Shown here piece after piece: positions 1,766-41,155 of a DNA stretch of 64,000 nt. The stretch is from contig DASXVV010000009.1 in NCBI GenBank assembly GCA_036504035.1, positions 186,001 through 250,000 on the forward strand. Reading direction: 5' to 3'. The first letter of the stretch is position 1, and each line of letters begins with the position of its first letter. The notes under the pieces were generated by a model, which was not told where the DNA came from, searched no databases, and was given only the letters and a program-made list of their open reading frames with translations. Origin of the DNA: Candidatus Deferrimicrobiaceae bacterium. GTDB lineage: Bacteria; Desulfobacterota; Deferrimicrobia; Deferrimicrobiales; Deferrimicrobiaceae. Made by a program: the position numbers and the translations under genes.

Positions 1766-2196
1766 CGGGACCCGGTCCCCGCGCTGATGACCGTCGTGAT
1801 CTTGTGCCGCTTCTGCGTCGGCACCCAGCGTCCGCCGCTGAACCTGCGTGCAGCCCATGTGACCTCTACGGCCACCTGCGTGTTGTTTCCGTCGAGCGGG
1901 GTGATCGCCCGCGTCACCGAATAGTCCACCGCCTTCCCCCGAATGTTCCGGTAGATGTGGAGCGGCGTCGCCGTGCTCGCGAGGTTGACGAATGTCGTGT
2001 TTCGCGCTGTGTCCATGACGTTGTCGGCTATCAGGACCGCGTCCTCGCGCACCAGGTTGTTCATGTTGTAGTCGAGCGAGACGATCGACGTATCGGCCAG
2101 CGCGATGACGACGATCGAAATGATGGCCAGCGACACCATCACTTCGATCAGCGTGAACCCGCCGTTACTGTTCGATGCAAGTATTGGTCGCGTCAT
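1762..2196 (-). CDS. PilV-like minor pilin
   Basis: About 144 aa. The prepilin leader ends in NSNGG followed by FTLIEVMVSLAIISIVVIAL, the canonical class III signal. Start chosen at ATG 2196 behind GGAAGG; an ATG one codon upstream (2199) is also possible. The start lies inside the 3' end of the FimT-like gene (about 32 bp overlap) and the stop overlaps the PilW-like start. Size and order fimT-pilV-pilW-pilX-pilY1 are those of the minor pilin cluster that initiates type IV pili. Confidence 0.85.
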   Translation of the reverse strand: MTRPILASNSNGGFTLIEVMVSLAIISIVVIALADTSIVSLDYNMNNLVREDAVLIADNVMDTARNTTFVNLASTATPLHIYRNIRGKAVDYSVTRAITPLDGNNTQVAVEVTWAARRFSGGRWVPTQKRHKITTVISAGTGSR

Positions 2197-2704
2197 CATA
2201 CCTTCCCAGTTTGACCCGAGTCGGGCCGATCGAGATGCAGTCGACGTCGGGGTGAAGCGTGGAGTGCAGGTGGACCACCCCGCTGATCGATGCGAATCCG
2301 TTGCGATTGAAGCCGAATGCCGTGAACGTTGTGCCACCTGTGAGCTTCGCAATGACCGGAAAGTGGAACGTCCGCGTAACAACCCGGTGGTCTGCCCCCG
2401 GATCGAGCGTCAGATTGCCGTCCGGAGCAGGATCGGTATCCTCAAAGGTCGTGCAGCCGTTCCCGGTCAACACGACGAACGTGGCGCGACCTTTCTGCAT
2501 GGCCCGGGCGCGTGCATCGATGATATCGGCAAATACCTCCCCGGTCTCGGCCGCCACCCTGTGTTTCGCCATCCAGCCCTGGAACGAAATGGAAACCGCG
2601 ATGAGGAGAATGCCCATGATCGACAACGCGATCATGATCTCGATCAGGGAAAACCCGCGTCCGTTCGATCGGCCGAGCGCCATCCAGGGGCGATTCCGCT
2701 TCAT
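2165..2704 (-). CDS. FimT/GspH-type pseudopilin
   Basis: 179 aa. Prepilin leader MKRNRPWMALGRSNGRG followed by FSLIEIMIALSIMGILLIAV. The C-terminal part holds two Cys (near TGNGC and VDC) that could form a disulphide, as in GspH/FimT proteins. The family forms part of minor-pilin complexes and in some bacteria binds DNA during uptake; nothing here shows which. It follows PilY1 by 10 bp in the same operon. Confidence 0.85.
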   Translation of the reverse strand: MKRNRPWMALGRSNGRGFSLIEIMIALSIMGILLIAVSISFQGWMAKHRVAAETGEVFADIIDARARAMQKGRATFVVLTGNGCTTFEDTDPAPDGNLTLDPGADHRVVTRTFHFPVIAKLTGGTTFTAFGFNRNGFASISGVVHLHSTLHPDVDCISIGPTRVKLGRYDDATNTCIEQ

Positions 2705-23390: not shown

Positions 23391-26300
23391 TCATCCCCAA
23401 TGCGTATGTTCTTGCTCTAGGCGGTCCCAGGCAGCGAGGACCAGGCGTTGGGTGCGGTATTCACCGAACTTGCGAGTCTCGTTGTTTTTCAGGACGCGGA
23501 AGGTTTCGCCCGGGAAATCGGGACCGAACACTTCGGACGGGTCGAGAATGTAGCGGAGATCGTCGCGGGTCAGGCCGTACAGTTTCGCGTAGAGAGCGTC
23601 GAGTTCGGCGCGAAGGAGAGCGCGGCGTTCGGGGTCCCACGGGAATGGGTCGACTGTGTACCCAAGATCCTCCGCGAAGGGACGCAGGTTGTCCGCGGTG
23701 TAGACCAGCTCGAGGACGCGGGGGGCGATGAATTCAATATCCTCCTGGGAATATCGTTCCGGGGGAAGGACCGCGATCTGTTTCATCACGTGATACTTGA
23801 GGTGAGTTCCCCCGACCTTCATGCGAGCGACTAAATCCAATGCCAAGCAATTGAGATTGCCAAGCAGACAAGCAATGAGTCTGGGGGCTTTTGTACCCGG
23901 CATGATCAACAGAAATGTATCGCCAGTCCCGACCCTTGGTACCACTCCGGCGATCATGGTCCGCTCGTCGGTTGATCGGCAGATATCACGCCAACCCATC
24001 AGCCACTTGCGGGTCCAGTTCTTGTCGTTCAGCCGTTTTTCGACTTCCTCCTCCGGCACCCAGTATCGCGGCATGGGCGCGTAAGACGGATCGGATTTGT
24101 CATCGTCGGACACGTCCCGCGAGTCGGTCCCGTTCGATTCGTAGGTTGCCCACCGGTGGTCGAACTGGTGGACCATCTTCGCTTCATAGAGCGGGACGTA
24201 GCGTGAGTCCCTGGATGTGCGGTACGACATGTCCTCCATCATCACTGGGCCTTCGGCGCACAATTCTTTACCAGTGACAAAGAGTCCGCTATCGCTGGCC
24301 ATATTGAATAACCCCTGCCGAAACGTGATCCCCCACGGGTTACCGGCAGCGCTCCTTCCTTCCTCGATCAGCACCGGCACGCGTCGATAAATCTTTTTCG
24401 CCAGTTCAGCATCGAGGCCACTACGGAATACGGGGCACGTCTTCGAATTCGGATTAACCAAGCGAATATCGTTGGGCGAAAGGGTGAACCGACGATGCGG
24501 ATCGGAGAGTTGGGTGGTGTCGCCGGCGAAGAAAACAAACTCAGTTGAAGCGATATCCGCCCCCAGCGTCATAAGAGAAAATTTGTAGCTTTTATGAACG
24601 CTTGGGAATATCCCGTCTCGATTTTCAAAATCATACAAACTCGCCAAGCGCTTGCCGCTCGCGACCGCATTGAAGAACACCTTCGTGTTGTCGTCTGTCA
24701 CGATGCCCGTTGGAACGATGATTCCGGCCCGGCCCGTGGGAGAAAGAAGGTTCAGAAAAAGTTCGGAGAACAACGAGTAGGTGTTCAATTTCCCAAAGGC
24801 AGTAAGTCGAAATTGCCCACTTTCACGAATGAACTGATTGGCCGCCTCAGATCCGCGCTTGTCTTCCTCATACTGTTTCCAAACCGCTGGGGCATCAGTT
24901 CTCAACGCCTCAATTGCCTTCTTGCGCTTCGCTCCTGCCAAGGCAGCGATTCGTGGGGAGATCGTTGCGAAATATTCTTCCTCGCCAAGTTGGGAAACCT
25001 CCCAAGGCGGGTTGCCTAACACGACGTCGAAACCGCCCTTTGAAAATACTTTTCGGAAGGCGATGGGCCAATGGAAGAACTGGTTAGCAACCGATGTCTG
25101 GTGGACGGCCTCGGCCACACCGGGGCGCATCGCGATCCCCTTTTCGGCGCGCGTCAGATCCTCGGTCAACGGAACGCGGTCGAACATCTCGGGCGTCTTG
25201 GGCAGGAAGAACGCGGCTGTGAAGAGGTCGGCGGCCAGCCGTTGCGCTGAGGTCTCCGCCGCTTCCTGGTATTTCGCCCATGCGGCAGCTTTCGCCTGGA
25301 TCTGCTCGATCGTCTCCTCGGGCATGGCGTCGAGGTCGATCGTCGACTCGACGGACTTCAGCGCAGCCGGTGCATAGAGGCTTCCCTGAACCGCTTTGAC
25401 ACCCGCGACATTCCGTTTTTTCAGGTCGCGAGCAGCGGTCTTGACGTCACCTGAGAGCGCGGCGTATGCCTCGTCGGGAATTCCGTCGTCAAGGATCTTG
25501 AGATCGCGCACCCCGACCAGCGAATCGCCGCACCGGATGTGTGCGTCGAGAAAACCCAACGGGCGTCCTGGCTCGACCGTTTCGAGCCACAGGGCGGTCT
25601 TGCACAACTCGACTGCCAGTGGATTGCGGTCGACACCATGGATGCAGTAACGCACTACCTCGCGCAACGCGTGACGGCGCAGCAGCTCGTCGGGAATGTC
25701 GGCGTCGGCATCGAGGCGTGCCACCTCCATCGCCACACGACGGGCGGCAGCCAGCAGGAAGTGGCCGGAACCGCAGGCGGGGTCGATTATTTTCAACGAG
25801 AGGAGCGCAGCACGCGGATCTGCCGGATGGTCGGCCAACGTTTTCGCGATCACAGGCTCAAGTGCGCTCTTGATCAGTTCGCCTACGAGACTTTGCGGCG
25901 TGTAGTAGCTGCCGCTCAGTTTCCTCTCGGAACCTTTGCCGCGATCGCCCGATTCGTCTCCCACGAACGCGAAGGTCCACGGTGTAGCCTCGACCGACAG
26001 GATCGGGTGAAGTTCGAGGAGGCTTTCGTAGACGCTGCCCAGCTCTTCGGTGTCCATATCGCGATAGTTGACGCGCGACAACGCAGTCCCGGTCTTGAAG
26101 AAGGCGAGCGCGTAGATCGCCCGCAACAGGAAGCCGTTCTCGATGAGCGCCCCATCGAGATTCGGACACGCGCCGGGAGCGAACAAACCACCCAACGGGG
26201 GAAGCGCGAGCGGCGCGGCACCGTCAGCCAGGCCGCGGAATACGACCCGCAGCGCCTCCCATCGGTCAACGTAGGAATCGTAGCCATGGCGACGTAAACT

Positions 26301-27302
26301 CTGCTCCCGAAGGCGGGCGATTCCATACCCTTGGGCGTACAGATCACGTGCTTCGGCGTCGGACGCGTCATCGTGGAGCACTTCACGGTCCTCGACCGTC
26401 AACAGGAAGATGAAGCGGTAGACGAGCCGGAGCAGTTCCCGGTAATAATCCTGGGACGAAAGCGATCCCGACCGGAGCGCCTCGCGCAGGGCATCGTTGC
26501 TCGTTTGGCAGACGAAACCGTTTCCCAGTTGCCGCAGAGCATCTGTCACCCCGTCCCTCAAGTGCGCCAGCGCCCGCTCGCCCGTCTTCTGCGCCTCATG
26601 CCGCCACTGTTCGAGAATGCATCCATCAGGCTTTTCGCCCAACACGCCGAAGCGGCTTGCGTGAAAGATCAGCCAGAAGGCGGCGAAGTCGGAGAAGAGC
26701 CCCTCTTCGAACATTCGTTCGAGATTGGCTTCGACGTAGGCCGGCCGGGTCAGACTCGGATTTTTACGCAACAGTCGGATCACGAGACCGTTGGAAACGA
26801 TCCCCCACAGGCTGGCGTCCTCGGCGTTGAGAAATTCCTGGAGTAGCGCGTGGGGCGAACGTCGGCGACCCTCTTCACCAAAGCGTACGTTCCCCTTGTC
26901 GAGCGGGATGTCGGCGGTCGTCATCACCAGCGGTACCTTGCCGCCGGCCGCGTAGTGCCGAACCGGGAAGGTACGGCCGCCCAATATGGCGGCTTCGGCC
27001 CCGGCGATGTCGTCGAACCCGAGACCGCTTTTCAGAAGCTGAGCGAGCCAGCTTTCGATACCCACTTTGACGGGGTCGGCGCCTGTCCTTACGACACGCT
27101 CCCGGTATTCCTTCCATTCCGCTAACGCAATTCGCCACGCCCTGCCGATCTCGTCTTTCAGGTTCAGTCCCCGAGCTATCCAGTAATCATCGCCCTTCTG
27201 GCGGTTCGCTTCGAGTGCGGCGACTTTCTGCAGGAAACCCGAGGGGAGGATGCCTCCTTCCGTGCGAAGCGCCGTGAATCCGATGCCGTTATCGCGTCTC
27301 AT
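23391..27302 (-). CDS. Eco57I-type N6-adenine DNA methyltransferase (DrmMI-like)
   Basis: 1303 aa. SAM-binding motif I DPACGSGHFLLAA near residue 505, catalytic motif IV NPPWE near residue 762, and the surrounding Eco57I-type methylase layout. The long N-terminus (about 480 aa) and C-terminal target-recognition half give the size of methylases in BREX and class 1 DISARM. It should mark host DNA by adenine methylation so that partner helicases/nucleases act on unmodified DNA. It follows the SNF2 gene by 18 bp. The DrmMI assignment is inferred from size and neighbours; the methylase call is firm. Confidence 0.9.
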   Translation of the reverse strand: MRRDNGIGFTALRTEGGILPSGFLQKVAALEANRQKGDDYWIARGLNLKDEIGRAWRIALAEWKEYRERVVRTGADPVKVGIESWLAQLLKSGLGFDDIAGAEAAILGGRTFPVRHYAAGGKVPLVMTTADIPLDKGNVRFGEEGRRRSPHALLQEFLNAEDASLWGIVSNGLVIRLLRKNPSLTRPAYVEANLERMFEEGLFSDFAAFWLIFHASRFGVLGEKPDGCILEQWRHEAQKTGERALAHLRDGVTDALRQLGNGFVCQTSNDALREALRSGSLSSQDYYRELLRLVYRFIFLLTVEDREVLHDDASDAEARDLYAQGYGIARLREQSLRRHGYDSYVDRWEALRVVFRGLADGAAPLALPPLGGLFAPGACPNLDGALIENGFLLRAIYALAFFKTGTALSRVNYRDMDTEELGSVYESLLELHPILSVEATPWTFAFVGDESGDRGKGSERKLSGSYYTPQSLVGELIKSALEPVIAKTLADHPADPRAALLSLKIIDPACGSGHFLLAAARRVAMEVARLDADADIPDELLRRHALREVVRYCIHGVDRNPLAVELCKTALWLETVEPGRPLGFLDAHIRCGDSLVGVRDLKILDDGIPDEAYAALSGDVKTAARDLKKRNVAGVKAVQGSLYAPAALKSVESTIDLDAMPEETIEQIQAKAAAWAKYQEAAETSAQRLAADLFTAAFFLPKTPEMFDRVPLTEDLTRAEKGIAMRPGVAEAVHQTSVANQFFHWPIAFRKVFSKGGFDVVLGNPPWEVSQLGEEEYFATISPRIAALAGAKRKKAIEALRTDAPAVWKQYEEDKRGSEAANQFIRESGQFRLTAFGKLNTYSLFSELFLNLLSPTGRAGIIVPTGIVTDDNTKVFFNAVASGKRLASLYDFENRDGIFPSVHKSYKFSLMTLGADIASTEFVFFAGDTTQLSDPHRRFTLSPNDIRLVNPNSKTCPVFRSGLDAELAKKIYRRVPVLIEEGRSAAGNPWGITFRQGLFNMASDSGLFVTGKELCAEGPVMMEDMSYRTSRDSRYVPLYEAKMVHQFDHRWATYESNGTDSRDVSDDDKSDPSYAPMPRYWVPEEEVEKRLNDKNWTRKWLMGWRDICRSTDERTMIAGVVPRVGTGDTFLLIMPGTKAPRLIACLLGNLNCLALDLVARMKVGGTHLKYHVMKQIAVLPPERYSQEDIEFIAPRVLELVYTADNLRPFAEDLGYTVDPFPWDPERRALLRAELDALYAKLYGLTRDDLRYILDPSEVFGPDFPGETFRVLKNNETRKFGEYRTQRLVLAAWDRLEQEHTHWG

Positions 27303-27320: not shown

Positions 27321-30167
27321 CTAAAAGGATGCCACCGGCATCAGCACGTAGACGCCGATCACGTCTACGGGGAGGCACGGGGTCACGAGATAACTGATGC
27401 CCTTCGTCTTGCCGGCATCGCGCACGCGTCGATGATCGGCCAGCAGCTCTTTCGCACGCCGCGTGGCGATCGTTTCGAAGGCCATATTCAATCCGGTGAT
27501 CGCGGCGATCGCTTCGCCAAGCAGCCGTTCACGCTGGGCTGGTTCCATGTTTCTCGCCACCCCGGCCTGCATCAGGGCGAGCGCATCCGCGTTCTCTACT
27601 AGGACGGGAGAAGTCGCCCCGCGAACCGCAACCGCCACACATTCCTCGGACAGTAGCACCTGATCGCCATCGCCGCCGCGAATGACTTCAAGCTGACTGC
27701 GAAGACGAAGGAGGTAGACGGTTGTTCTCTCGGTGACCGTCTGGGTGAAGAGTGCCCCGCACCGGGAGCCAATGTCAGGCGTGCCCTCTTCAAGCGAGAT
27801 CTCGGAGATGTAATTGGATATCGCGGCCACCAGCGGGTGGGCACGGTGGACGTGTTCGGCGCCTGCCGGCGGATGGGAAAAAGCAATTTTCATCATTTCG
27901 GGAAAACCGTTCGACAAAAGTTGCTCCCGCAACACGCCGGGCAGATGGCGAATCGGAAGGCGGAAGAATCCCTTACCGGTATCAAGCGGTGCGCCCAACC
28001 CTTTTGCGGCGACCGTCACGAACCGGGAAACATCTTCCTCTCCCCCAAGAACGTCAACCGCCTTGCGCCATTCTGGCAGCACCTCTTCAGGCCGCATCCG
28101 GCGCTGGGCAAAAAGCGTATTGCTCTGCTTCGCCTTTTCACGGGCGCTAGCCCACGCGGCATCGACTTCGGCTTCTTCCTTTGGGAAAGCCAGTTGCAGT
28201 TGATCAGCTGCGCCAGAGGCGCTGCTTTTCCGGAGCAGCACCGCCTCCATGATGGCCTGCGTCACCTTGTTCGCGTCGGTCGGCATCGGGACCGACACGT
28301 CCAGCTCTTTACGGATGACGTCGGCCTTCCGAAGAATGACGCGGAGAACCGCTCCATCGACCGGATTGTTGTCGCCATACAACATCACCGCACGGACGAC
28401 CTTCGATCGCTGGCCGAAGCGGTCGACACGCCCCTCCCGCTGCTCATGGCGCGCCGGATTCCAGCTCAGGTCGTAATGGACGACCGCATCGAACCCGGCC
28501 TGCAGGTTGATCCCTTCGGAAAGACAGTCGGTCGCCACGAGGATGCGTCGATCTTCACCCGACAGAGCAGCCACCTTTTCTTCCCGTTCCTCGGACGCCA
28601 GCTCGCCGGTGACGGCCTCGATGGCCACCGCTTTCCCCGACAACTCAGACTGCAATTGTTCGGCTACGTAGTGGGCTGTGGCGATATAGCGGCAGAATAC
28701 GACCGGATTGAACCCGTCCCTGACTAGGGCGTTCACGATGCTGATCAGGGTGGCCAGCTTGGGATCCTTCGCCTTCCCGCGAAGCTTCAGCGCCCGTTCT
28801 GCGAATGACGCGAGCTTCTTCCCAGCCGACGATTCCGGAATAATGGCTTCCGGATGGGCGGCAGGCACCGTTTCGTCGCCGGAAAACAGCTCTTCGCTTT
28901 CGCCATCGAACACGGTCTCCACACCCGCCTGTTCGAGCGCGGCGATCTGCTCGGCTTCTGTCACCCCTTCGACCGCTTTTAGACGCGTGTTGATCGCGAT
29001 CGCTGCCGCTGCGGGACTGGAACTGATGCAGCGCAGCATTGCAAGCGCGGCCCACCAGTTCATCCGCTGCCGGAGGATCGAATCACCCCGGACGCTCTCG
29101 ACCATCTCGCGGGCAAACGCCAGCACGTCTGTAAACAGTGAGCCCCAATCGCCCGTCAAGCGGTAAGTCTCTTCCTTGGTGTGCCGATCAGGGAATAGAG
29201 TGGCGTCTTTCCACTCGGCGATATTTGCTCGACGGCGCTGAACGAAATGGGATGCGAGCTTTTCGCGTTGTGCATCCCGGATAAGACCGGTCTGGCCCCG
29301 CATATCGCGGAACGACGGATCGAGCAAACCGAGCAGGTTGTAAAACGCCTCGTCGTCGCCGCTGTGCGGTGTCGCCGTCAGCATGACCATGTGTCGATCG
29401 GGATCGGCGGCCAAGCCCTTCAGTAACTGGTATCGCTGGTGCCTGGTGCCAGGGTTGCCTTGGACGCAAGTGTGCGCCTCTTCGATGACGACGAACTCGG
29501 GGCAGGAAGTAAGGAAGCTCTCGCGTCGGCGGTCGGACTTGATGTAGTCGAGACTGACCACGGTAAACGGATGCGCTTCGAAAAGAGACCTGCCCGAGGG
29601 GAGGCCGCGCTCGAGACGGCCGGCGGTGCCGGTTCTCACCACCTCGGCGTGAATATTGAACTTGGACTGTAGTTCCTGCTTCCACTGATCGCACAGGTGG
29701 GGCGGACACAGGACGGACATCCGGCGGATTTCGCCGCGGTCGAGCAGTTCGCGAACGATAAGCGCCGCCTCAATGGTCTTGCCGATCCCCACGTCGTCTG
29801 CGATGAGCAACCGGACCGTGTCGAGCTTGAGCGCCATGAGCAGCGGCACAAGCTGATAGGCGCGCGGTTCGACGCACAGGTTGCCGAAGCTGCGGAACGG
29901 ACCCGCCCCAGCGCGAAGTTTGAGTCGGAGCGCATCGCGCAGGAGTAATCCGGCTTCGTGGGTGCCCGCTTTCTTCGGGTCGGGCGGCGCAAACGTGGCG
30001 GGCTGCGGCGGCACCGGTTCTAGCGGCACGTAGATGCGGGTGGCGTCCTCGTCACTTCCACCCAACGGGCGAAGTCGAAGAACGTCGGGACGCTCTTCGG
30101 GAAGCACCACCCATTCGCGCCCCCGCGCCTTGACGAGCGATCCAGGGCGAAAAGTTGCTTGTGGCAA
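27321..30167 (-). CDS. SNF2-family helicase, DrmD-like
   Basis: 948 aa. TTG start at 30167 with GGGAGG 8 bases upstream, placed in the tail of the helicase gene. The N-terminus FRPGSLVKARGREWVVLP resembles DrmD of DISARM. Walker A DDVGIGKTIEA (about 125), DEAH-type box VIEEAHT (about 226), motif III LTATPHSGDDEAFYNLLG, and motifs V-VI ATDCLSEGINLQ ... HEQREGRVDRFGQ (about 545-585). Likely an ATP-driven translocase on DNA working with the methylase downstream. Class 1 DISARM has drmD next to drmMI, as here. Confidence 0.9.
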   Translation of the reverse strand: MPQATFRPGSLVKARGREWVVLPEERPDVLRLRPLGGSDEDATRIYVPLEPVPPQPATFAPPDPKKAGTHEAGLLLRDALRLKLRAGAGPFRSFGNLCVEPRAYQLVPLLMALKLDTVRLLIADDVGIGKTIEAALIVRELLDRGEIRRMSVLCPPHLCDQWKQELQSKFNIHAEVVRTGTAGRLERGLPSGRSLFEAHPFTVVSLDYIKSDRRRESFLTSCPEFVVIEEAHTCVQGNPGTRHQRYQLLKGLAADPDRHMVMLTATPHSGDDEAFYNLLGLLDPSFRDMRGQTGLIRDAQREKLASHFVQRRRANIAEWKDATLFPDRHTKEETYRLTGDWGSLFTDVLAFAREMVESVRGDSILRQRMNWWAALAMLRCISSSPAAAAIAINTRLKAVEGVTEAEQIAALEQAGVETVFDGESEELFSGDETVPAAHPEAIIPESSAGKKLASFAERALKLRGKAKDPKLATLISIVNALVRDGFNPVVFCRYIATAHYVAEQLQSELSGKAVAIEAVTGELASEEREEKVAALSGEDRRILVATDCLSEGINLQAGFDAVVHYDLSWNPARHEQREGRVDRFGQRSKVVRAVMLYGDNNPVDGAVLRVILRKADVIRKELDVSVPMPTDANKVTQAIMEAVLLRKSSASGAADQLQLAFPKEEAEVDAAWASAREKAKQSNTLFAQRRMRPEEVLPEWRKAVDVLGGEEDVSRFVTVAAKGLGAPLDTGKGFFRLPIRHLPGVLREQLLSNGFPEMMKIAFSHPPAGAEHVHRAHPLVAAISNYISEISLEEGTPDIGSRCGALFTQTVTERTTVYLLRLRSQLEVIRGGDGDQVLLSEECVAVAVRGATSPVLVENADALALMQAGVARNMEPAQRERLLGEAIAAITGLNMAFETIATRRAKELLADHRRVRDAGKTKGISYLVTPCLPVDVIGVYVLMPVASF

Positions 30168-30171
30168 CGGG

Positions 30172-33100
30172 TCAGCCTCCCGTTCCGAAAACGTCGGGAT
30201 AGGCGGCCACTATTCCGGGCCAGTCGGTACGAGTGCCCGGGAAACGGATCGGAGTGATACCAGCGTCCTTCAGTTTCCCGTCGAGTGACTGGTCGGTGGC
30301 AAACTGCTGGGCCGTCGCATGCGCAGAGCCATCGACATATATGACCGCCTGGACATGGCGATAACCGAAATCGGGACGGGTATGGAACACATCGAGATTG
30401 AACTTCCCGGTATCGGGCAGGCGATAGCCGTTTCCTTGCAGGAACCGGAGCCAGTCGGTTTCGAGAGGTGAGCTGCACTCGGCGATCAGTGCCTCGAAAT
30501 GAACATCCGCCGATCGACCGCCGGCGCCTCGTTTCGCTTCGCCTCGCGTCAGACGGCATAAAAGTTCGAATGCCCCGGAACTCTTGCGGTCGATCACCTC
30601 GTGATCCATCTGGTTGTAGTAGCTGAGCAGGCATCGGTAGCAACCTGCTTCGCATGGATTTGGCGTGCCGGGCTTGGCGGTATCCTCAGCAGTGCCGACA
30701 TCCCAGACTCCGTCCTTGGGCTTGTAATGAATGATTTCGAGGGCTCGCACAGCGACCCGTCGAAGCGCGTCGGCATCGTTGGCCAGATGCGTGAGTACTC
30801 CCGCGCCCCCTTCGGCTGACTCGTAGAACAGAATCGCGTTGCGGGTGTCGCGACCGGGCAGCGGCTCGGCCATCAGCTCGCTTTCCTCAAGTTGGAATAC
30901 CGATTCTATGCCGCGCTTGAGGGCGTACTGCAGCGTCGCCATGTCTTCCGCTTCCAGCATCCCCTTCGGACGAATGACCAGCACATTGCGTCGGTCCTCA
31001 ACGAACGGGATGATCCGCTGGATGGTGCTGCCATTAGCGTTGCCGCTTCCTTCCGCCTCGGCGTCCTGATCTTCGGGCGCCTGCGAATCCTTGCTCCAGA
31101 TGCCGGTCACGCGGTCGATGTTGAACCCGTAAATCGTCTTTTCTTTCCGGCGACGCCAGCCGAGGTTGATCCGCCACACGGTAGCCGCCGGTCCGTAGTG
31201 AAGTTCGAGCAGTTCGTCGGCCCCTTCCGTGAAACTCGTCTTGACCACCTGGAGCGTGTCGTTCTCGCGGGCATATTCCAGGGTGGTCTGCATGTCGTAG
31301 CCCTGGCGCTGCCGTTCCTCCTCGTCTGAGGTGATCCGCATCGCACGCCGGGTGCTGACGTTCTCGACCCGGTAGAGGGCGGAGAGCATCTTCCCAGATG
31401 AAAGCGGATGATCGCACGCCATGCACCGCTCGGCGTCCTTGTTGGTTCCCAAGTGGCCGTAGCCGCATTCAGGGCAGATCCGCGCCGCCCGGACTGGCAA
31501 GCCCACGCCGCTCGCGGTCCCTTCTTCATCCCGCACCCCGAGAATGACCTTTCGAACACGGTACTGGCTCCCCTCGTGGTAGATGATGCTCAAGGGGCCG
31601 AACTCGGATAGCGCAAGGAAACGTGGTCGGGAGAGAAACGAATCGCGCCCGATCTTCTCCCGGCGGGCAGGAATGAAGGCGAGCAGCGGCAAACGCGGGA
31701 AATTGTAGCCAGGCAGAAAGCCGGTGCTGGCGAGGTAGCGGTAAGTATAGAAGTCGGAGTTCATGGTCGATTTGGACTGCAGCAGCAGATCCTGCTGGAT
31801 GCGCGCCTCGGTGTGGCGCAACCGCGCTTCGTCCCTTTCCTTCTCGGAAGATGCCAGACTGGTCAGCACTTGGTTGGCAGATTCCATTTGCCGGCGTGTT
31901 GCCCGATAGAGAGAACGCCAGCGGTCGAACGCGGCGTCGAATGCGCGAAAGGCGCTCCGGACCGTCCGATCGAGCCAGTCTTTCTTGAACCAGGGGGCAG
32001 ACGCAGGCGTGAGATCATCCGCCAGCATCGATAGGATCCGATTCGCACGAAACGAAGTTCGGGTTCGCACGCCTTCGAGATCCATGGCGGCAGCGAGATC
32101 GGTGCGAAGCGGCAGGTTCTCGTTATCTTCCGTCCCGAGGATTCCCTTTACCGAGTTTTCGAGCTTCTGCCCCGTTTCGGCCAACCAGACGGCGTGAAGG
32201 TGGCTTTTGACGAGATCCTCGTTGGCGAGATCAAGCGTCGGCGGGTTGACCGAACCGGCGACCATTCGGGCGGGCGCCGAGAAGAAATACTGGTCGTGCG
32301 GACTGCCGGCCGCGCAATAGGTAACGACGAGCGCGGGCTGCCGGTTCCGGCCTGCGCGACCACTCCGCTGCGCATAGTTGGCGGGTGTGGGCGGGGTGTT
32401 GCGCATGTAGACCGTGTTCAGTTCGGAGATATCGATGCCCAGTTCCATCGTGGGGGAGCAGAAGAGGACCGGCAGAAGCGCCTTCTTGAAATCCTCCTCG
32501 CGCTGTTCCCGTGTCTCGGAATCGACCTGCGCTGTGTGTTCGGCCGCCTTCAGCTGGTGCAGGAAACGGCTATGGTCGCGCAACGACTGGGCGACGTTCT
32601 CGTAGAGCGCCTGGAAGAAGCGGTTATCGGTCTTCCGGACGCCCCGGCCGTCCTGGAGGGCCTCACCCTCTTCGGGCAACCGCCAGCGGAGCGCGGACGC
32701 CGAGATGCGATATCCCTCGGTTCCCTTGGAGACCTCGACCGGCTCGACGATCCCGTAGAGCGTAAGCGCCTTGAGCAGTCCGGCCAGAATTCCATAGCAG
32801 TCGTCCTCGGTTATCTTCGGCGGCAGGCGAGGGTTTGCGATGCCTCCCCAGCTACCCGGTTTTTTGAGGTGCCTTCCGGGACCTGATTTGGCCGAGATGT
32901 AATGCGCCCTCGGATCGAAATCCCGCCCGGCGGGTCTGGATCCGGGAAGCATGTAGCGACCCTCAAACAGCCGCTCGTCTTCGGTCAGCCCCCACGGCTC
33001 CTTCAAAGCGTTGAAGCTCGCGTTGCGGATGCGCTCCTGCTGGTACCGGTCAAGATAATTCGTCTTGATGCAGAGAGCCCGTCGCATGGACGAAAGGATT

Positions 33101-35424
33101 TCGATCGCCGCGTCTCTTCGATGTTCCGGCGTTCCTCCCGCGAGCAGCGGGTGCGCCCCCGCCCATGCCTCGGGGTCGGCGCAACATTGGTCTATCGTGG
33201 CGTAATCGATGCGCAACATCCCGAGTTGTTCGAGGTTGGGATTGGTCAGCCGCCAACCGCGCTGCAGGTCGAAGTAGAGCCGATAGCCAAGCACGTCGCG
33301 CAATGCCTGCCGGGCATTTTCCTCGGCCAGCCCCTTCGCTTCGGGATTTGATGCGAAGTCGGTCTTTTCGAGCCGAAGATGCTGGGCGACCGCCTGGGTC
33401 AAAGTCTCGTCAGTGAGATATCCCTTGGGCGCATCGGCGATGGCAGCAAGCAGGCTGCCCCTCAGCAGCAGGATCTGGATGAAGTCATTGAAGTGGCCCG
33501 CCTGAAGCGATGCGTCCTGCCGATTATCGGTAAAGCTCAGTATCTTCTTCGCGCGGGGATCGAGATCCTTTGCTTCCTCCATCAGATGGCGAAGCGCGGA
33601 TAAAGTCAGCATCGTGGTGGCCGAGCTGCGTCCTTCCATACTGAGGCTGGAAAGTTTTGAGAAGTCGGAACGGATGCTGCCATCGTAAAAAGCGCCGCAG
33701 TCGGGATTGAGGCAAAACCGGAACGAGCCGGGGAGGAACCATCCCGGGAGTCCGCGCTCGGCCGGACTTCCCTCTGTATCGACGATCAGCGGCCGGGGAG
33801 CGAATTTCTTGAACGACGACTTCAGTTTCGGATCGCCCTTGCTATAGTCGAGCCACTCCTCGGGATAGGCGGTTTCGAGATCCGAATCGTCCCATTTGCC
33901 GACTGGGTCCGGCATGAAATAACCGAATCGGACGTCCTCGTCCTCGTGAGAGCGTTCGCCCAGATCGCGGGGAGAGATGCCGGCCAGAACCTTCCCTTCC
34001 ATCGGTGCCCAGACGGGGAAATATTCCTGTCCGCAGACGCGGCAAAAGGTCGAGTTGAACAGACGCTTGCTGCGATCGCCCGGCATATATTCCTGGCCGT
34101 CGATCGTGAGGTAACGCTCCCCTTCCGGCTCGAGTGTGGCGAACAGGTCGCCTGGGCCGGAGATGAACTGATGCAGTCGGAAGGCGAATAGCCCCTTGCC
34201 GCTTGCGTCTTTGGTGTTGTAAGCCAACAGCAGGAATTCGGCGAGGCGGGAGCGCACCGTTCCCGGCGGGAGACCGGTAATCTCGGACAGTTCAGCGGCA
34301 GCGTTTTCAAGACTGCGCGGGCAGGCTCTAACCCACTTGTCTTCCTGCCAGGCAAGACCGAGATTCAACTCGACCCAGATCGAGAGCGGGTGGGAGCGAA
34401 GAGCATCGAAGGACGAATCGCGGGGGAGATCCGATTCGAGAGCAGTCTTCAGTTGTTGCGGAGTCGGTGAGTTTCCATCTGGCGTAACACGTTCCAGCCT
34501 TTCGGTGATGACATTGTTGGTCAAGACCGGAGAGCCAAATAGACGCCCAGCCACCTTAGCGATGACAGCCTTGCGCTCCTCGGCCGTCCCTTCGGTGGCC
34601 ATGGTGGCAGATGTGCCGACGCAGAGCAGTTCGCTGTTGAGCGCCTCACGGACGCGCCTTACGAGCAGCGCCACGTCGGCGCCTTGGCGCCCGCGGTACG
34701 TGTGCAACTCATCGAGGACGAGGAAACGGAGACCCTTCGCTGCCTGAATGATCTTGCGGTCGATGTCGGCGTCCTGCCGGGTCATCAGCAGTTCGAGCAT
34801 CATGAAGTTGGTGAGCAGGATATCGGGCGGATTCGCCGCCATTTTCAGTCGCTCGTCCTGTTTCTCCTGACCGGTGAAACGGCCGAACGTGACCGGCTCG
34901 TTCCCCTCGCCAAATCCATCTTGCAGAAACTTGCGAAGCTCTTCCAACTGGCTGTTGCACAGCGCGTTCATCGGATAGATGACGATAGCGCGGATACCCT
35001 TCTTCCCCTGCTCCGCCTTTTTTTCCTTCAGTACCGCATCGACGATCGGGATGATGTAAGAGAGCGATTTGCCGGAGCCGGTGCCGGTGGTCAGGACGTA
35101 GGATTCGCCGCGGTCCGCGGTGCGAATCGCTTCCTCCTGGTGCTTATGAAGCATGAGCGTGGGACCGCGATTGCCATCCTTCTTGCCGAAGCGGAAGATG
35201 TCGTCGCACTTGGGATCGAGGATGCCTTCGCGAACCAGTTCCTCGACGGTTCCACCGGAGACGAAGCTCGGGTTGAGCTGGATCAGCGGATCGGGCCAGA
35301 AGTGCTGTCCGGCGTAAATTTCGTCGACGTAGGATCGGATATCGTCAGAGAGGATTCGGGCGAAGGAACGCGAGAAGGTGCTGTAGTCGAGAACAAGCTG
35401 CTCTCGAAATCGGAAGACATCCAT
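30172..35424 (-). CDS. Giant DEAD/DEAH helicase with DUF1998 and C-terminal nuclease-like domain (DruE/DrmA-DrmB-like)
   Basis: About 1750 aa, first gene of the operon. Walker A TTGTGSGKSLSY (about 110), DELH box LVLDELHTYRG (about 235), SAT motif VGTSATMA, and motif VI QRSGRAGR (about 1020). Several zinc sites follow: CRVCG, CPECGYG ... CMACDHPL (about 1325-1345) and the DUF1998 signature CYRCLLSYYNQMDHEVIDR (about 1600). The last 90 residues (RPDFGYRHVQAVIYVDGSAH ... LKDAGITPIRF) look like a Vsr/DUF559-type fold. In DISARM the helicase (DrmA) and DUF1998 protein (DrmB) are separate; Druantia DruE joins them. Start ATG 35424 is 13 bases after AGGAGG; GTG 35436 is an alternative. Confidence 0.88.
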   Translation of the reverse strand: MDVFRFREQLVLDYSTFSRSFARILSDDIRSYVDEIYAGQHFWPDPLIQLNPSFVSGGTVEELVREGILDPKCDDIFRFGKKDGNRGPTLMLHKHQEEAIRTADRGESYVLTTGTGSGKSLSYIIPIVDAVLKEKKAEQGKKGIRAIVIYPMNALCNSQLEELRKFLQDGFGEGNEPVTFGRFTGQEKQDERLKMAANPPDILLTNFMMLELLMTRQDADIDRKIIQAAKGLRFLVLDELHTYRGRQGADVALLVRRVREALNSELLCVGTSATMATEGTAEERKAVIAKVAGRLFGSPVLTNNVITERLERVTPDGNSPTPQQLKTALESDLPRDSSFDALRSHPLSIWVELNLGLAWQEDKWVRACPRSLENAAAELSEITGLPPGTVRSRLAEFLLLAYNTKDASGKGLFAFRLHQFISGPGDLFATLEPEGERYLTIDGQEYMPGDRSKRLFNSTFCRVCGQEYFPVWAPMEGKVLAGISPRDLGERSHEDEDVRFGYFMPDPVGKWDDSDLETAYPEEWLDYSKGDPKLKSSFKKFAPRPLIVDTEGSPAERGLPGWFLPGSFRFCLNPDCGAFYDGSIRSDFSKLSSLSMEGRSSATTMLTLSALRHLMEEAKDLDPRAKKILSFTDNRQDASLQAGHFNDFIQILLLRGSLLAAIADAPKGYLTDETLTQAVAQHLRLEKTDFASNPEAKGLAEENARQALRDVLGYRLYFDLQRGWRLTNPNLEQLGMLRIDYATIDQCCADPEAWAGAHPLLAGGTPEHRRDAAIEILSSMRRALCIKTNYLDRYQQERIRNASFNALKEPWGLTEDERLFEGRYMLPGSRPAGRDFDPRAHYISAKSGPGRHLKKPGSWGGIANPRLPPKITEDDCYGILAGLLKALTLYGIVEPVEVSKGTEGYRISASALRWRLPEEGEALQDGRGVRKTDNRFFQALYENVAQSLRDHSRFLHQLKAAEHTAQVDSETREQREEDFKKALLPVLFCSPTMELGIDISELNTVYMRNTPPTPANYAQRSGRAGRNRQPALVVTYCAAGSPHDQYFFSAPARMVAGSVNPPTLDLANEDLVKSHLHAVWLAETGQKLENSVKGILGTEDNENLPLRTDLAAAMDLEGVRTRTSFRANRILSMLADDLTPASAPWFKKDWLDRTVRSAFRAFDAAFDRWRSLYRATRRQMESANQVLTSLASSEKERDEARLRHTEARIQQDLLLQSKSTMNSDFYTYRYLASTGFLPGYNFPRLPLLAFIPARREKIGRDSFLSRPRFLALSEFGPLSIIYHEGSQYRVRKVILGVRDEEGTASGVGLPVRAARICPECGYGHLGTNKDAERCMACDHPLSSGKMLSALYRVENVSTRRAMRITSDEEERQRQGYDMQTTLEYARENDTLQVVKTSFTEGADELLELHYGPAATVWRINLGWRRRKEKTIYGFNIDRVTGIWSKDSQAPEDQDAEAEGSGNANGSTIQRIIPFVEDRRNVLVIRPKGMLEAEDMATLQYALKRGIESVFQLEESELMAEPLPGRDTRNAILFYESAEGGAGVLTHLANDADALRRVAVRALEIIHYKPKDGVWDVGTAEDTAKPGTPNPCEAGCYRCLLSYYNQMDHEVIDRKSSGAFELLCRLTRGEAKRGAGGRSADVHFEALIAECSSPLETDWLRFLQGNGYRLPDTGKFNLDVFHTRPDFGYRHVQAVIYVDGSAHATAQQFATDQSLDGKLKDAGITPIRFPGTRTDWPGIVAAYPDVFGTGG

Positions 35425-35634
35425 CGGTGGGAACACGCCTCCTGAATGCTAAGCAGCTAATCGGCAAAAAGCATTCTTATGCTTACATAAAATTGAACAA
35501 AGTGCAGGGAGAATACCAATGGGTCTTTCGCCCCCAAGAGCGATCTATCGCCTCCAAACGGCGTCGGATCGAATTGTGGAGGTAATAGCGTATGGAATGG
35601 AGATTTGAATTCGTCGACCTCGGTGTTTGTCATC

Positions 35635-37286: not shown

Positions 37287-37805
37287 TTACGGAAGGTTTC
37301 CTCGCCAGTGGCGCTCCCCCATAAGCCGCTCGCCGTCCACCCCATAGTAGACGATCTCCACGAATTCCGTTTCCGGGCGCTGCATGATTCCAACATGAGA
37401 TATTTCAGCGATTCGGTGGGCAAATGCTACCCGAGCGCAAATCGGTTCCAATTGCTGGCCGACATACTCCCCGACCAAGGTGCTTGCCGCTCGCTGATAC
37501 TTCTCCCAATTCTCGTTGCCCGTTAACCGACGCCCGCCGGGATAGAAAATCCCAGCGCACAGGTAAAGCGCCTTTGCTGCCTCGTTGCGCAATTTCGCCT
37601 CCCGTGACTTCTCTTCCAGTAGTAAGGGGAGATTGAAAATTTCGACTAGCGGTTTGCCACTAGTTGGCTGACCGTGCTGCTCATATATTTTTTTAAGTGC
37701 CGGAACGCAAGGATCGGCCGCAGATTGTAACGACGCCCAACCCATGCATGTGGCCATGTTGATCTCTCGTCGACGCCGCTTCTCATTGAACTTCACTTCT
37801 CCCAT
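37287..37805 (-). CDS. Hypothetical protein
   Basis: 172 aa, with a strong ribosome site (GGGAGGAAAT) before ATG 37805. Basic N-terminus (NEKRRRREIN), a helical middle (PLLLEEKSREAKLRNEAAKALYL) and a C-terminal segment ending in YYGVDGERLMGERHW. No motif recognised. It lies 25 bp after the 146-aa gene and belongs to the same leftward group of island genes. Confidence 0.7.
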   Translation of the reverse strand: MGEVKFNEKRRRREINMATCMGWASLQSAADPCVPALKKIYEQHGQPTSGKPLVEIFNLPLLLEEKSREAKLRNEAAKALYLCAGIFYPGGRRLTGNENWEKYQRAASTLVGEYVGQQLEPICARVAFAHRIAEISHVGIMQRPETEFVEIVYYGVDGERLMGERHWRGNLP

Positions 37806-37830: not shown

Positions 37831-38271
37831 TCATCGATTGGAACCCATTGAAAATGAGTTCGTTAGCCGACGCTTTTCGATTACGAATCCTGGCCCTTGA
37901 CCGCAGTCGTTTAGCCATGGGGCGCCATCCGATGTAAATCGGATTTTGCATTCCCGCTCCGAGTGAGCATCAAGGACTGCCAGCATTGATAAGCGGAACA
38001 GAGTCAAAATAATCTTCCCCGGTGTTAGAACCGCCAAACGTGCGATCGCGTAAAATTCCCGCGTTGGAATCCAGCACACATCGCGTGAATATTCCTGAGA
38101 TCGATGAAGGAAATAACCTCCATCGGGTGACCGAACCCAAGTCGGGATTAGTACCCGGCGTTCGCCGAGGTCGACAACACCATTGGGGTTCATTTGGCGC
38201 CAAGCCCGCTTAAAGCGAGACAACACTTCAAAATCAGACCCACTAAGATCTTTTCGATGCGTCGTTCCCAT
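37831..38271 (-). CDS. Hypothetical protein
   Basis: 146 aa. Starts 3 bp after the stop of the 357-aa gene with GGGAG about 9 bases upstream, so translation is probably coupled. Contains RFKRAWRQMNPNGVVDLGERRVLIPTWVRSPDG, a hydrophobic stretch ILTLFRLSMLAVL and one Cys-Lys-rich end. No recognisable family. The pairing with the gene upstream suggests a two-gene unit. Confidence 0.65.
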   Translation of the reverse strand: MGTTHRKDLSGSDFEVLSRFKRAWRQMNPNGVVDLGERRVLIPTWVRSPDGGYFLHRSQEYSRDVCWIPTREFYAIARLAVLTPGKIILTLFRLSMLAVLDAHSERECKIRFTSDGAPWLNDCGQGPGFVIEKRRLTNSFSMGSNR

Positions 38272-38274
38272 TTA

Positions 38275-39348
38275 TTACCACTCCCTGTGTGGGTTAAAAA
38301 AAGTGACGTAGACATGCTCGGGAACCCGAGATGGGTCCCAGAAAAAATTCGGTTTATTCGAAAAGGACCGATCACAGCTTTTGGTTTCGAAGAGGCTGTG
38401 CAGCATTTCAGGTAATGCTCTAGCTCTCGACTCAGCGCCGCTGAGCCTTTTGATTTTCTGCCGTATCCAACGTGTTAGATCGAGGATTTGCGGAAGCGCG
38501 GATTTGGCATATTTGGCGTGTTCAACGAAGTCGCGTATAACGCGCTCAAGCAATATTATTCGGTAGGCTGGAGTCGTTCTCGCTCGGAGAGTGGCGTGTA
38601 CTGCTGCCCGAAATGTTTCGATGCGGTCATTTGAAATTAGGATGTCGATTTTCCCGGTACGGCCGACCCGAACGTGGCGGACCTGGTAATCCCACAGTTG
38701 GGCGTAACCGTCGCGGATGTCCACCGCCCCAGGGAACTGCTCACGCTCCAATCGAACAAATTTATTGCCGAGTCTAAGACCAGCAGGCCGATCGACCGAG
38801 AAAATTATTCCGTCGAATATTTGGGCCGCCAAACGGCTGCGCGCAATGTCGCCCGCCCCATAGTGAGCCAAGAAAAGATCCCTAACGACATCGTCATAGA
38901 AACGGTGGTCGTGTATGCCAAGAACATCGAGATTTCGTCGTAGGCGATCCTCATCGATGGACCGCGGAAGATCACTAATCCCTAACCACCAGTGGGCAAC
39001 TCTCGAATTAGCTTGGCGACGAACCCACGTTAATAGATGCCCCCGATGCCAGTCACACCTGAAAGCCTCACGTTCGCGCTGCAATACGGGAGCCAGCACA
39101 AGATATAGACCATATAGCTGACGGACATCATCGAATACGGCCCACCCCTCGCTCTTACAGCGCGGGAAATATTTCGTGGCTAATCGATCCGCGTAAGTGC
39201 GGACCGAAGCTGATTGAAACTTCTCAAGGAGCTCGCCATCGGGGAAGGATCGAACACGCGCGAGTCGGCCCTGCATCCGACGCAAATTGTAATAGATGGA
39301 ATTAGGAACTGGGGAGGTAATCGAGATCGGATTAGTAGCATCGTCCAC
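38275..39348 (-). CDS. Hypothetical Arg/Trp-rich protein behind a structured leader
   Basis: About 357 aa from GTG 39348 (AGG 6 bases upstream); ATG 39276 is another possible start. The frame is open to 39483, but that part is made of GC-rich hairpins and reads as non-coding. The protein is basic with many Arg, Tyr and Trp (FQSASVRTYADRLATKYFPRCK, HLLTWVRRQANSRVAHWWLG, TRWIRQKIKRLSGAESR) and could bind nucleic acid. No known motif found. Island-internal, leftward, followed by the 146-aa gene. Confidence 0.65.
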   Translation of the reverse strand: MDDATNPISITSPVPNSIYYNLRRMQGRLARVRSFPDGELLEKFQSASVRTYADRLATKYFPRCKSEGWAVFDDVRQLYGLYLVLAPVLQREREAFRCDWHRGHLLTWVRRQANSRVAHWWLGISDLPRSIDEDRLRRNLDVLGIHDHRFYDDVVRDLFLAHYGAGDIARSRLAAQIFDGIIFSVDRPAGLRLGNKFVRLEREQFPGAVDIRDGYAQLWDYQVRHVRVGRTGKIDILISNDRIETFRAAVHATLRARTTPAYRIILLERVIRDFVEHAKYAKSALPQILDLTRWIRQKIKRLSGAESRARALPEMLHSLFETKSCDRSFSNKPNFFWDPSRVPEHVYVTFFNPHREW

Positions 39349-39371
39349 GGGAGACCTGCCAGCAGAGGTAG

Positions 39372-39464
39372 CCGCCCCATTTGGGCGGTGAGTCACAAAC
39401 CTCGAGCGGGAGGAACCCCGCTCCCGGCCGGCAGGCCGGAAACATGAGGGGGCATTTTGGCCCC
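39372..39464 (-). promoter_or_regulatory. Leader with four consecutive GC-rich hairpins
   Basis: Stems read on the plus strand: CCGCCC/GGGCGG (39,372-39,388), GAGCGGG/CCCGCTC (39,404-39,423), CCGGCC/GGCCGG (39,424-39,439, directly abutting) and GGGGC/GCCCC (39,449-39,464). All stems are perfect and there is no T-run. They would fold in the 5' leader of the gene starting near 39,348. Function unknown; a translation-control or attenuator-like leader is possible. Confidence 0.55.
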
Positions 39465-39616
39465 GTACGGTAGTACCAATCAATTAGATGCTGATTTTGG
39501 ATTATAAATAAAACAATCCAAAGGTGTCAATATCTTTTTTGCTTAGAAAACACCATTTTCAAACGCAATACTTTCTTTGCAAATGACATCAAGCTCAATG
39601 TAAACCAGAATACTCT

Positions 39617-39695
39617 ATAGATATCCATAAGCCCCCCATAGATATCTATAAGCCATCTATGGATATCCATAACCACTTTCAGGATATCCTTGAAG
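39617..39695. repeat. Four 21-bp iteron-like direct repeats
   Basis: ATAGATATCCATAAGCC (39,617), ATAGATATCTATAAGCC (39,638), ATGGATATCCATAACC (39,659) and CAGGATATCCTTGAAG (39,680), exactly 21 bp apart, so two helical turns with the same face of DNA. Each core is a palindrome around GATATC. This is the layout of plasmid iterons, partition sites or co-operative operators. The fourth copy is degenerate. Confidence 0.75.
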
Positions 39696-39803: not shown

Positions 39804-40155
39804 CCATATATTGAAGTGGGTATAGATTTCCAAGCGGCCCTTGACCTCGCTGTTGGTTACTCTTACGCTGGTGGCTATTCCAACCCGTTTCAACTTTAAT
39901 GGCGCCGAGCGCCCTCGTCCCACGGTTTTCCAGCCGCGCTGGAACAACTCGTTTCAATATAGATTGGACCGTGTCCACTCGTTTCAGACCTAAATCCGGC
40001 CGTGCCGTCAAAGGAGGTGACGCACCAAGTGTAGGCCAGGTCTAGTACGAGTGACACGACCCCAGCAATCCGCTCAGGCGGTTAAAATACGTCGTGTTCA
40101 TGGGATTTTAGGAGCAGTTAACGAAACACAAACAAATGCGCGAAGCTCTTTCCAT

Positions 40156-41155
40156 AGGATGTCTTGCCAACATCCTGAAATCGGTTGCCAACCGATTTCC
40201 AAACAAGAGAGAGATAAGCGCGCAGGTGGAGAGCCGGATGCGAGGGAAACCCGCCCGTCCGGTTCGGGAACCAGGTCCTGGAGGCTGCCGGATCGTCTAA
40301 AAAGCGATTGCCGTCGCCAGATCCGATGCGGTGACCAAGACTTGAGTTCATTCGTTCTTTGAAAATCGAATGTGGTGCGCCTGGATACTTGATTTACCCT
40401 TTTGGTCAGGGGACTAGGACTAAAGCGCTTCAGCGTATGTCCAAGTAACCTGCAAGGCCCTCGACGGATTTATCGGGATAAGCGCATAGACGGGCGGCAA
40501 CCCATCTAGAACTAGGCAAGCGTGAAGCCGATAGGTTTGGAGCAGTCGAGGTAAAGCCGGAAACGGCGAGCTGAGCAACTATGGCGACGGGAAACTGGAA
40601 GCCCTCTCGTAAAGTCAGGAGACGGATGATGAGTAGCGCCAGCTGTGACACTTCGCAGCGCGAAAGTCCGAAAAGTGGCCGCATCGGGGCCACCATCTAT
40701 TTCTTGGCACAGGGGCCGCCTAAAGTTGCATATGGGGTAAGTGGGGTAAGAGCCCACGACGTCGGGCTGCCGCAATCCTGCCTTTTAAGGTAGATCGCGG
40801 TCAGTGGCGTTTTCAGGGAATCGGGGATCGAACCTGCCGGATCGTTTGGCGATGATCCGGTTGGAGACAGAGGCTCCGTAGTAATCCCCCCGCACAAGGG
40901 GCAACATCTGCGTCCGACCTACGCGTTAAGAGCGCGAGGCGCCTGAGGGACTGGCAATCTCGAGGGGTAAGCGAAGGACAGACGGCATTGTGAAAAGCGA
41001 TGCGGACGAAGGGAGTTAGCCTGAAAGATTCGTGTTCGTTCCTGTTTCGAAATCCGGACGGATCGGCCGCACTGCGGTCGCTGTCCCTTCTGAGAAACCC
41101 CGTCCCCCAGGTCGCCATTTAGGCGACTCTTTGGGGGGACGGGGTTTTCTTTTTC
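40156..41155 (+). ncRNA. Long structured RNA; candidate circularly permuted group II intron
   Basis: No convincing gene lies in 39,484-41,196, but the plus strand is packed with stems and ends in a strong terminator. Stems seen: AGGATGT/ACATCCT (40,156-40,176), AAATCGGTT/AACCGATTT (40,178-40,198), GCCG-GAAA-CGGC (40,556-40,567), GTGGCC/GGCCAC (40,675-40,693), CCGGATC/GATCCGG (40,837-40,860). The hairpin at 40,231-40,265 matches group II domain V: AGC triad in GAGCC, GAAA loop, two-base CG bulge, closing GGTTC; it has one extra bulged A. The typical intron start GTGCG lies downstream at 40,375, so the domain order would be permuted. The 5' end and domain VI are not resolved. Confidence 0.55.
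41098..41155 (+). terminator. Very strong Rho-independent terminator of the RNA locus
   Basis: CCCCGTCCCCC (41,098-41,108) pairs with GGGGGACGGGG (41,134-41,144), with an inner stem GTCGCC/GGCGAC, and is followed by TTTTCTTTTT. There is no T-run on the other strand, so a rightward transcript ends here, although no protein gene points into it from the left. Confidence 0.88.

Follow-up and report, generated by a model that had tools for sequence, protein, structure and literature searches.

A likely circularly permuted group II ribozyme and its divergent maturase-like neighbour in a Deferrimicrobiaceae genomic island

We analyzed a 64,000-nucleotide (nt) stretch of the genome of a Candidatus Deferrimicrobiaceae bacterium (GenBank assembly GCA_036504035.1, contig DASXVV010000009.1, positions 186,001 to 250,000; hereafter the window, numbered from its first letter). 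The 16S sequence of this host is an exact match to probe SRB385Db, in keeping with, though no proof of, a deltaproteobacterial (Desulfobacterota-like) lineage. A structured RNA element on the forward strand of the window belongs to a genomic island whose start is marked by a tRNA-Leu with a tyrosine integrase. Read from 5' to 3', this element consists of two hairpins (P1 and P2), domain 5, domain 6, a 23-nt 'exon' and domains 1-3, with the loop motif UUGCCA present in both hairpins 5' of domain 5, and a protein-coding gene is transcribed away from it on the opposite strand (Table 1). The island also contains a defence-type cluster with Dpd/Druantia-like helicases, comprising an Eco57I-type methylase (23,391-27,302) and, at 27,321-35,436, a DpdE-like SNF2 helicase (27,321-30,167) and a DruE-like helicase (30,172-35,436).

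Table 1 Features of the element and its neighbours (window positions, except for the last row, which gives positions in a homologous locus)
Feature	Position	Strand	Observations
P1 hairpin	40156-40176	+	7-bp stem, loop CUUGCCA; read from sequence and centroid fold
P2 hairpin	40178-40198	+	7-bp stem, loop UUGCCAA, core UUGCCA at 40185-40190; covaries across known permuted RNAs and the window
Domain 5	40231-40265	+	Canonical-looking: AGC triad, GAAA loop, CC bulge; RF00029 match, compensatory changes in homologues
Domain 6	40268-40349	+	RF00029 match; basal pairs kept in all copies
Bulged branch-point A	40345	+	Within domain 6, 7 nt from predicted 3' splice site
3' splice site, AU	40350-40351	+	Cut after 40351; A-GUUC-AU; CAU before the cut in all copies
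Permuted 'exon', predicted 23-nt RNA circle	40352-40374	+	IBS1-EBS1 pairing kept despite changing exon sequence and length
IBS1, GAA(U)GUG	40368-40374	+	End of permuted exon
5' splice site, GUGCG	40375-40379	+	GUGCG in all copies
Domain 1 scaffold	40375-40864	+	End approximate; consensus structure of 11 sequences
EBS1, CACUUC	40649-40654	+	In hairpin loop 40642-40659; every other copy has CACCUC, with compensation in IBS1
Domain 2	40905-40984	+	Loop core UGGCAA at 40952-40957 pairs with P2 loop
Domain 3	40985-41017	+	Hairpin at 40985-41002
Possible closing helix (split domain 4), 3' strand	41023-41032	+	Partner at 40141-40152
Strong intrinsic terminator	41096-41155	+	Read from sequence; terminator-like hairpins also 3' of other complete copies
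Divergent maturase-like gene	38275-39483	-	Homologue of gene A from 12 permuted loci; actual start probably near 39300
Sigma-70-like promoter, TTGACA-18-TATAAT	39501-39530	-	Perfect, 12 of 12 matches; faces maturase-like gene
Gene B and gene C in locus L125, respectively	2736-3152 and 2150-2692		

The Rfam model of group II intron domains 5 and 6 (Intron_gpII, RF00029) matched 40,229-40,351 with 43.8 bits, which lies above its gathering score of 40 (E = 8e-7 for a 2.1-kb stretch), with no second match in either the window or the whole 3.17-Mb genome. The sequence GTGCG is found 3' of this match, at 40,375-40,379, and the domain order is therefore permuted, which rules out a canonical group II intron running from domain 1 to domain 6 with terminal splice sites. 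An initial annotation, made by a model without database searches, had proposed a circularly permuted (CP) group II intron on the basis of a domain-V-like hairpin upstream of GTGCG, and this interpretation is supported by homologues, covariation and the Rfam match to domains 5-6. Its placement of the hairpin at 40,231-40,265, the reversed order and the roughly 700 bases of structured RNA downstream all held, as did the strong terminator (given as 41,098-41,155 and now found to begin two bases further 5'), but the bulge that it read in domain 5 as CG is in fact CC. The circle that it expected to be about 100 bases or less is refined to the predicted 23 nt.

Several other searches were uninformative or negative. 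The initial annotation had looked to a domain V match upstream of a match to domain I; the former was obtained 5' of the 5' splice site, while the Rfam models of domains 1-4 had no match in the window. The same models also miss the plasmid pTT8 RNA, a proven CP group II member, so their silence carries no information. A covariance model (R1) scanned across the phylum was silent even in the genome of the window itself and is likewise uninformative. A profile made from the sequences of eleven known CP RNAs gave no match in the window and a weak one on a contig from a Hydrogenedentota metagenome-assembled genome (L040). Searching plasmids and phages with the window element by BLAST returned ordinary domain 5 sequences only, and pattern scans of viral contigs recognized no CP element.

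We then relied on homologous elements, which were identified by a BLAST search of domains 1-3 against 395 genomes of the same phylum. This search revealed two copies, both in genome G064 and both aligned with the window over the whole element (E = 1e-40 and 1e-34). A search of the family of genomes to which G064 belongs located the element at 14 places in nine same-phylum genomes, with up to two per genome, 72-100% identity and one copy (L115) truncated at the edge of its contig. The copies keep P2, domain 5, domain 6, the exon, GUGCGC (GUGCGA in one copy) and domains 1, 2 and 3, and each of the six homologous loci scanned with Rfam (six of six) has a single domain 5-6 at its 5' end. A profile built from ten homologues, with the window excluded, matched 40,227-41,019 (E = 9.3e-60) and left the rest of the 64-kb window at noise. 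In sister genomes neither the ribozyme RNA nor the neighbouring protein was found, suggesting horizontal gain.

Covariation was evaluated from a consensus fold of 11 sequences, in which 126 of 256 predicted pairs show at least one double-sided change; because this fold is automatic, its long-range pairs call for caution. Domain 5 covaries among the homologues through compensatory changes, and the initial annotation had named the lack of such covariation as grounds for refutation. We isolated the P2 stem, the domain 2 stem and the pseudoknot joining their loops by hand in ten sequences; in this set, 98.6% of cells were paired versus 81.7% in shuffles, with a covariation score of 0.557 versus 0.180 that collapsed when the partners were slid. 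The pseudoknot, a feature exclusive to CP group II RNAs, pairs UUGCCA with UGGCAA in the window, where a double compensatory change (A-U to U-A) sets it apart from all other copies. Exons of the homologues vary freely except at their final six or seven bases, whose pairing partner is a conserved loop, GACACCUCG; in the window the EBS1 loop reads GACACUUCG and the exon ends in GAAUGUG, both sides having changed in step, with a single base bulged. Summed EBS1-IBS1 pairing reached 51.5 compared to 25.3 for shuffled exons, with none of 5,000 shuffles as good, and was found across predicted exon lengths of 14-16 nt in homologues versus 23 nt in the window. These shuffle controls ignore kinship among the copies, which inflates the numbers, but their direction is clear. 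An earlier guess for EBS1, at about 40,745-40,760 from a class-wide alignment, was replaced by the site at 40,649-40,654 identified from homologues. Among the ten other copies, the helix expected to join the 5' and 3' ends of the element, as a split domain 4, is strong and covaries, but in the window copy its pairing does not exceed chance.

The CP reading is settled by the fact that homologues keep domains 5-6 at the 5' end and GUGCG downstream, with covarying pairs in domain 5, at the splice sites and between P2 and domain 2. We thus consider it very likely that 40,156-41,032 (+) is a CP group II ribozyme: the domain order, the splice-site and pseudoknot pairing and the conservation are established by sequence comparison, as is the gene linkage described below, while catalysis is inferred.

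CP group II ribozymes ('T-large' RNA) were described by Roth, Weinberg and Breaker in 2021 (PMC8637638) as RNAs with domains 5-6, a short exon and domains 1-4, bearing extra P1/P2 hairpins and a pseudoknot between the P2 and domain 2 loops. According to that report, circles of the class span 15-86 nt, five CP RNAs yielded circle and branched RNA in vitro, additional pseudoknots (P1 with the 3' end and domain 3 with domain 1) are phylogenetically restricted, the neighbouring gene AcpG is frequent but not universal, and no maturase was found near the ribozymes (PMC8637638). To our knowledge, no function is known for the class. We recovered CP members from plasmids of Thermus, Polaromonas, Sulfuriferula, Burkholderia, Paraburkholderia, Azotobacter, Gluconacetobacter and E. 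coli, mostly by way of AcpG genes, and their P2 loops are mostly UGCCA-like and their domain 2 loops UGGCA-like, as are those of the window.

The window element shares with this class its order of domains 5, 6, exon, 1, 2 and 3, P1/P2 hairpins with GCCA loops, the P2-domain 2 pseudoknot, a bulged branch-point A, an NU/AU 3' splice site and EBS1-IBS1 pairing in domain 1. It also resembles the class in its small exon (predicted 23 nt) between reversed splice sites, the absence of an internal open reading frame (ORF) and its stand-alone setting beside a divergent gene. Unlike the domain 5 sequences of pTT8 and pPNAP05, which fall short, that of the window fits the canonical Rfam model; it has a CC bulge and an A (A40232) that can pair, whereas the class has a UN bulge and leaves the A of the AGC triad unpaired. 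At the 5' splice site, the class reads GGGCG while the window and all family copies have GUGCG, the canonical group II form, and in place of AcpG there is an apparently unrelated maturase-like protein. A scan of genome contigs for P2 plus domain 5 identified one true CP relative, on the Hydrogenedentota contig (L040, 1,380-2,460), which is intermediate between the known class and the window family in having a canonical-type domain 5 but GGGCG. In a joint alignment of P2 and domain 5 from seven proteobacterial CP members, L040 and the window, 15 of 19 pairs show double-sided changes; P2-domain 5 linkers were shortened by hand and the L040 linker is inexact by two bases beside the P2 stem, leaving domain 5 and the loop unaffected. 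We conclude that the window family forms a divergent branch within the class that Roth et al. described in 2021, kin by its order, P2 and the P2-domain 2 pseudoknot, and that it constitutes a new CP variant because its domain 5, 5' splice site and partner protein depart from the class.

That partner, which we call gene A, is divergent from and upstream of the RNA in all 12 loci with sufficient flanks (12 of 12), at 601-811 nt, or 0.6-0.85 kb if the window is included. Its product is about 350 amino acids (aa) long (277 aa in two copies, probably owing to mis-called starts). The window gene at 38,275-39,483 (-) is open over its full length and homologous to gene A (HMM E = 4e-18 over 285 residues), scoring 404 bits in a genome search with a profile that includes the window protein. 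Among the 395 phylum genomes, gene A is confined to the two with the RNA, and it was found in one of 26 genomes of the class; the linkage of RNA and gene A is known from two lineages only.

Sequence evidence for the identity of gene A is weak. Its best Pfam family is GIIM (PF08388, maturase domain), found for five of 13 members with a best E value of 0.0045, below the curated cut-off; the two gene A copies of genome G481 are its top two GIIM places. Profile comparison with LtrA-type proteins by hhalign gave E = 1.4e-4 over 169 columns (probability 53%), collinear from palm to X domain. A Foldseek search with the model of a homologue returned group II reverse transcriptases (RTs) or maturases as its top eight PDB matches (8fli_B, E = 4e-4, probability 1.00), with Prp8 lower, and a window-led model placed two group II ribonucleoprotein (RNP) chains at the top, with weaker scores (E = 0.028 and 0.09). 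These AF2 models are mostly of low confidence (mean pLDDT 48) and rise well above it only in the C-terminal part, where more confident strands and a three-helix bundle are predicted. The structure search is the main reason to regard the C-terminal half of the gene A protein as probably similar to the thumb/X domain of group II intron maturases.

The initial annotation had stated that no RT is present, which holds for the element, but the adjoining gene is maturase-like. The locus has no match to RVT_1, and twelve gene A homologues contain no YxDD motif; an FYDD string in the window protein sits where homologues lack it, so YxDD is not conserved. Three other carrier genomes have no RT match, which makes gene A their sole maturase candidate. 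Gene A is probably the dedicated maturase of the ribozyme, a role that is inferred only, and a maturase-like partner had not previously been reported for the CP group II class.

Compared to canonical group II introns with LtrA-type proteins, the window has a similar domain 5, domain 6, GUGCG/AU ends, EBS1-IBS1 pairing and maturase-like partner, but its order is permuted with the splice sites inside, and its ORF lies outside on the other strand without the RT catalytic motif. Stand-alone organellar maturases, such as the nuclear-encoded ones of plants, serve ordinary introns in organelles. Gene A is similar in that its inferred maturase function is separate from intron and RT activity and differs in adjoining a permuted bacterial ribozyme. 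Like AcpG (the TTHC007 family), it is a small, divergent neighbour of a CP group II RNA with unknown biochemistry. Homology of AcpG to gene A was not supported (pairwise BLASTP not significant; hhalign probability 5%). The two profiles do align weakly and collinearly across three C-terminal helices (E = 0.007, probability 5%), and AcpG, too, could be an X domain that has diverged strongly.

The element has those determinants of back-splicing that could be checked, and its predicted processing, the release of a very small circle by self-splicing, is inferred from published work on related RNAs, with no activity measured. The transcript would fold into a group II core ending in the split domain 4, and the branch-point A (40,345) would use its 2'-OH to attack the 5' splice site (40,374/40,375), selected by the pairing of EBS1 with IBS1. 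The 3'-OH thereby released on the 23-nt exon would then attack the 3' splice site (40,351/40,352), yielding a 23-nt circle and a T-shaped branched RNA. In this scheme, the maturase-like protein, which appears to retain a thumb/X domain without the RT catalytic motif, may bind and stabilize the ribozyme, replacing an intron-encoded protein; both its role and any cellular benefit are inferred only. As a whole, including the inferred catalysis, products and protein role, a CP ribozyme with a divergent maturase-like helper is very likely the best explanation (probability roughly 0.85). The biological purpose of the ribozyme is unknown, and back-splicing to a 23-nt circle and branched RNA with maturase-like help remains the most likely, inferred reading.

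Alternatively, the locus could hold the remains of dead introns, with domains 5-6 of one lying by chance just before the 5' end of another. Its domain 5 is indeed canonical, and closely similar ones occur in ordinary LtrA-encoding introns of Agrobacterium. However, the arrangement recurs at 14 places across nine genomes with 72-100% identity, each scanned locus has one domain 5-6, splice-site and pseudoknot pairing are maintained and the P1/P2 hairpins are a CP-only feature; conserved order and covariation refute this reading, which is all but excluded. It is also very unlikely that the family is active elsewhere and the window copy alone is decayed and inactive. Such decay would fit its longer domain 6 and exon, weak closing helix, CC bulge in domain 5, single copy and absence from sister genomes, but the branch-point A, both splice sites, EBS1-IBS1, P2-domain 2 pairing and domain 5 are intact, with compensatory changes, and the maturase-like gene is fully open with a perfect promoter match.

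A CP ribozyme without a functional tie to gene A, whose protein would merely be a passenger of the same mobile segment, is a more serious rival but still unlikely. In its favour, AcpG in the published class is linked but not always present, and the maturase match is weak by sequence; against it, gene A is divergent at 13 of 13 loci, the window shares gene A but not genes B and C (described below) and the protein resembles exactly the cofactor that group II ribozymes use. In a bolder reading, which we regard as very unlikely, the branched CP ribozyme and the RT-less maturase would form a stable RNP acting in trans via EBS1 to cut or reverse-splice into foreign or host RNA or DNA, with the tiny circle as a by-product. 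If this were true, the place of the window copy in a defence-rich island would not be accidental.

Under the preferred reading of a CP ribozyme with a maturase-like helper, gene A is a concrete protein candidate for the CP class, for which the absence of a nearby maturase in the 2021 report left open how so large a ribozyme folds in the cell. A lineage with canonical domain 5 and splice sites and an apparent dedicated maturase also ties the CP class back to ordinary group II introns. If confirmed, it would represent a group II RNP that gave up reverse transcription and intron removal and was kept for other use, as well as a possible means of producing very small RNA circles.

Finally, we made several minor observations around the element. 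Three CRISPR-repeat-like CGTTTCA motifs lie 5' of the ribozyme (39,883-39,985), where no array was recognized. Between gene A and the ribozyme, three 21-nt repeats arranged head to tail and sharing palindromic ATAGATATCCATA cores (39,617-39,679) look as though they could be operator or iteron sites, a possibility inferred from sequence alone, and these repeats were not found in three homologous loci. Gene B (about 140 aa, no Pfam family) and gene C (weak helix-turn-helix) follow gene A in 12 of 12 and nine of 12 homologous loci, respectively; window genes at 37,831-38,271 and 37,287-37,805 were considered as their homologues and rejected. In loci L121-L132, the spacer between gene A and the RNA is 0.6-0.8 kb, kept in all loci and alignable between copies, which is longer than a divergent promoter needs, and it may hold a further conserved element.
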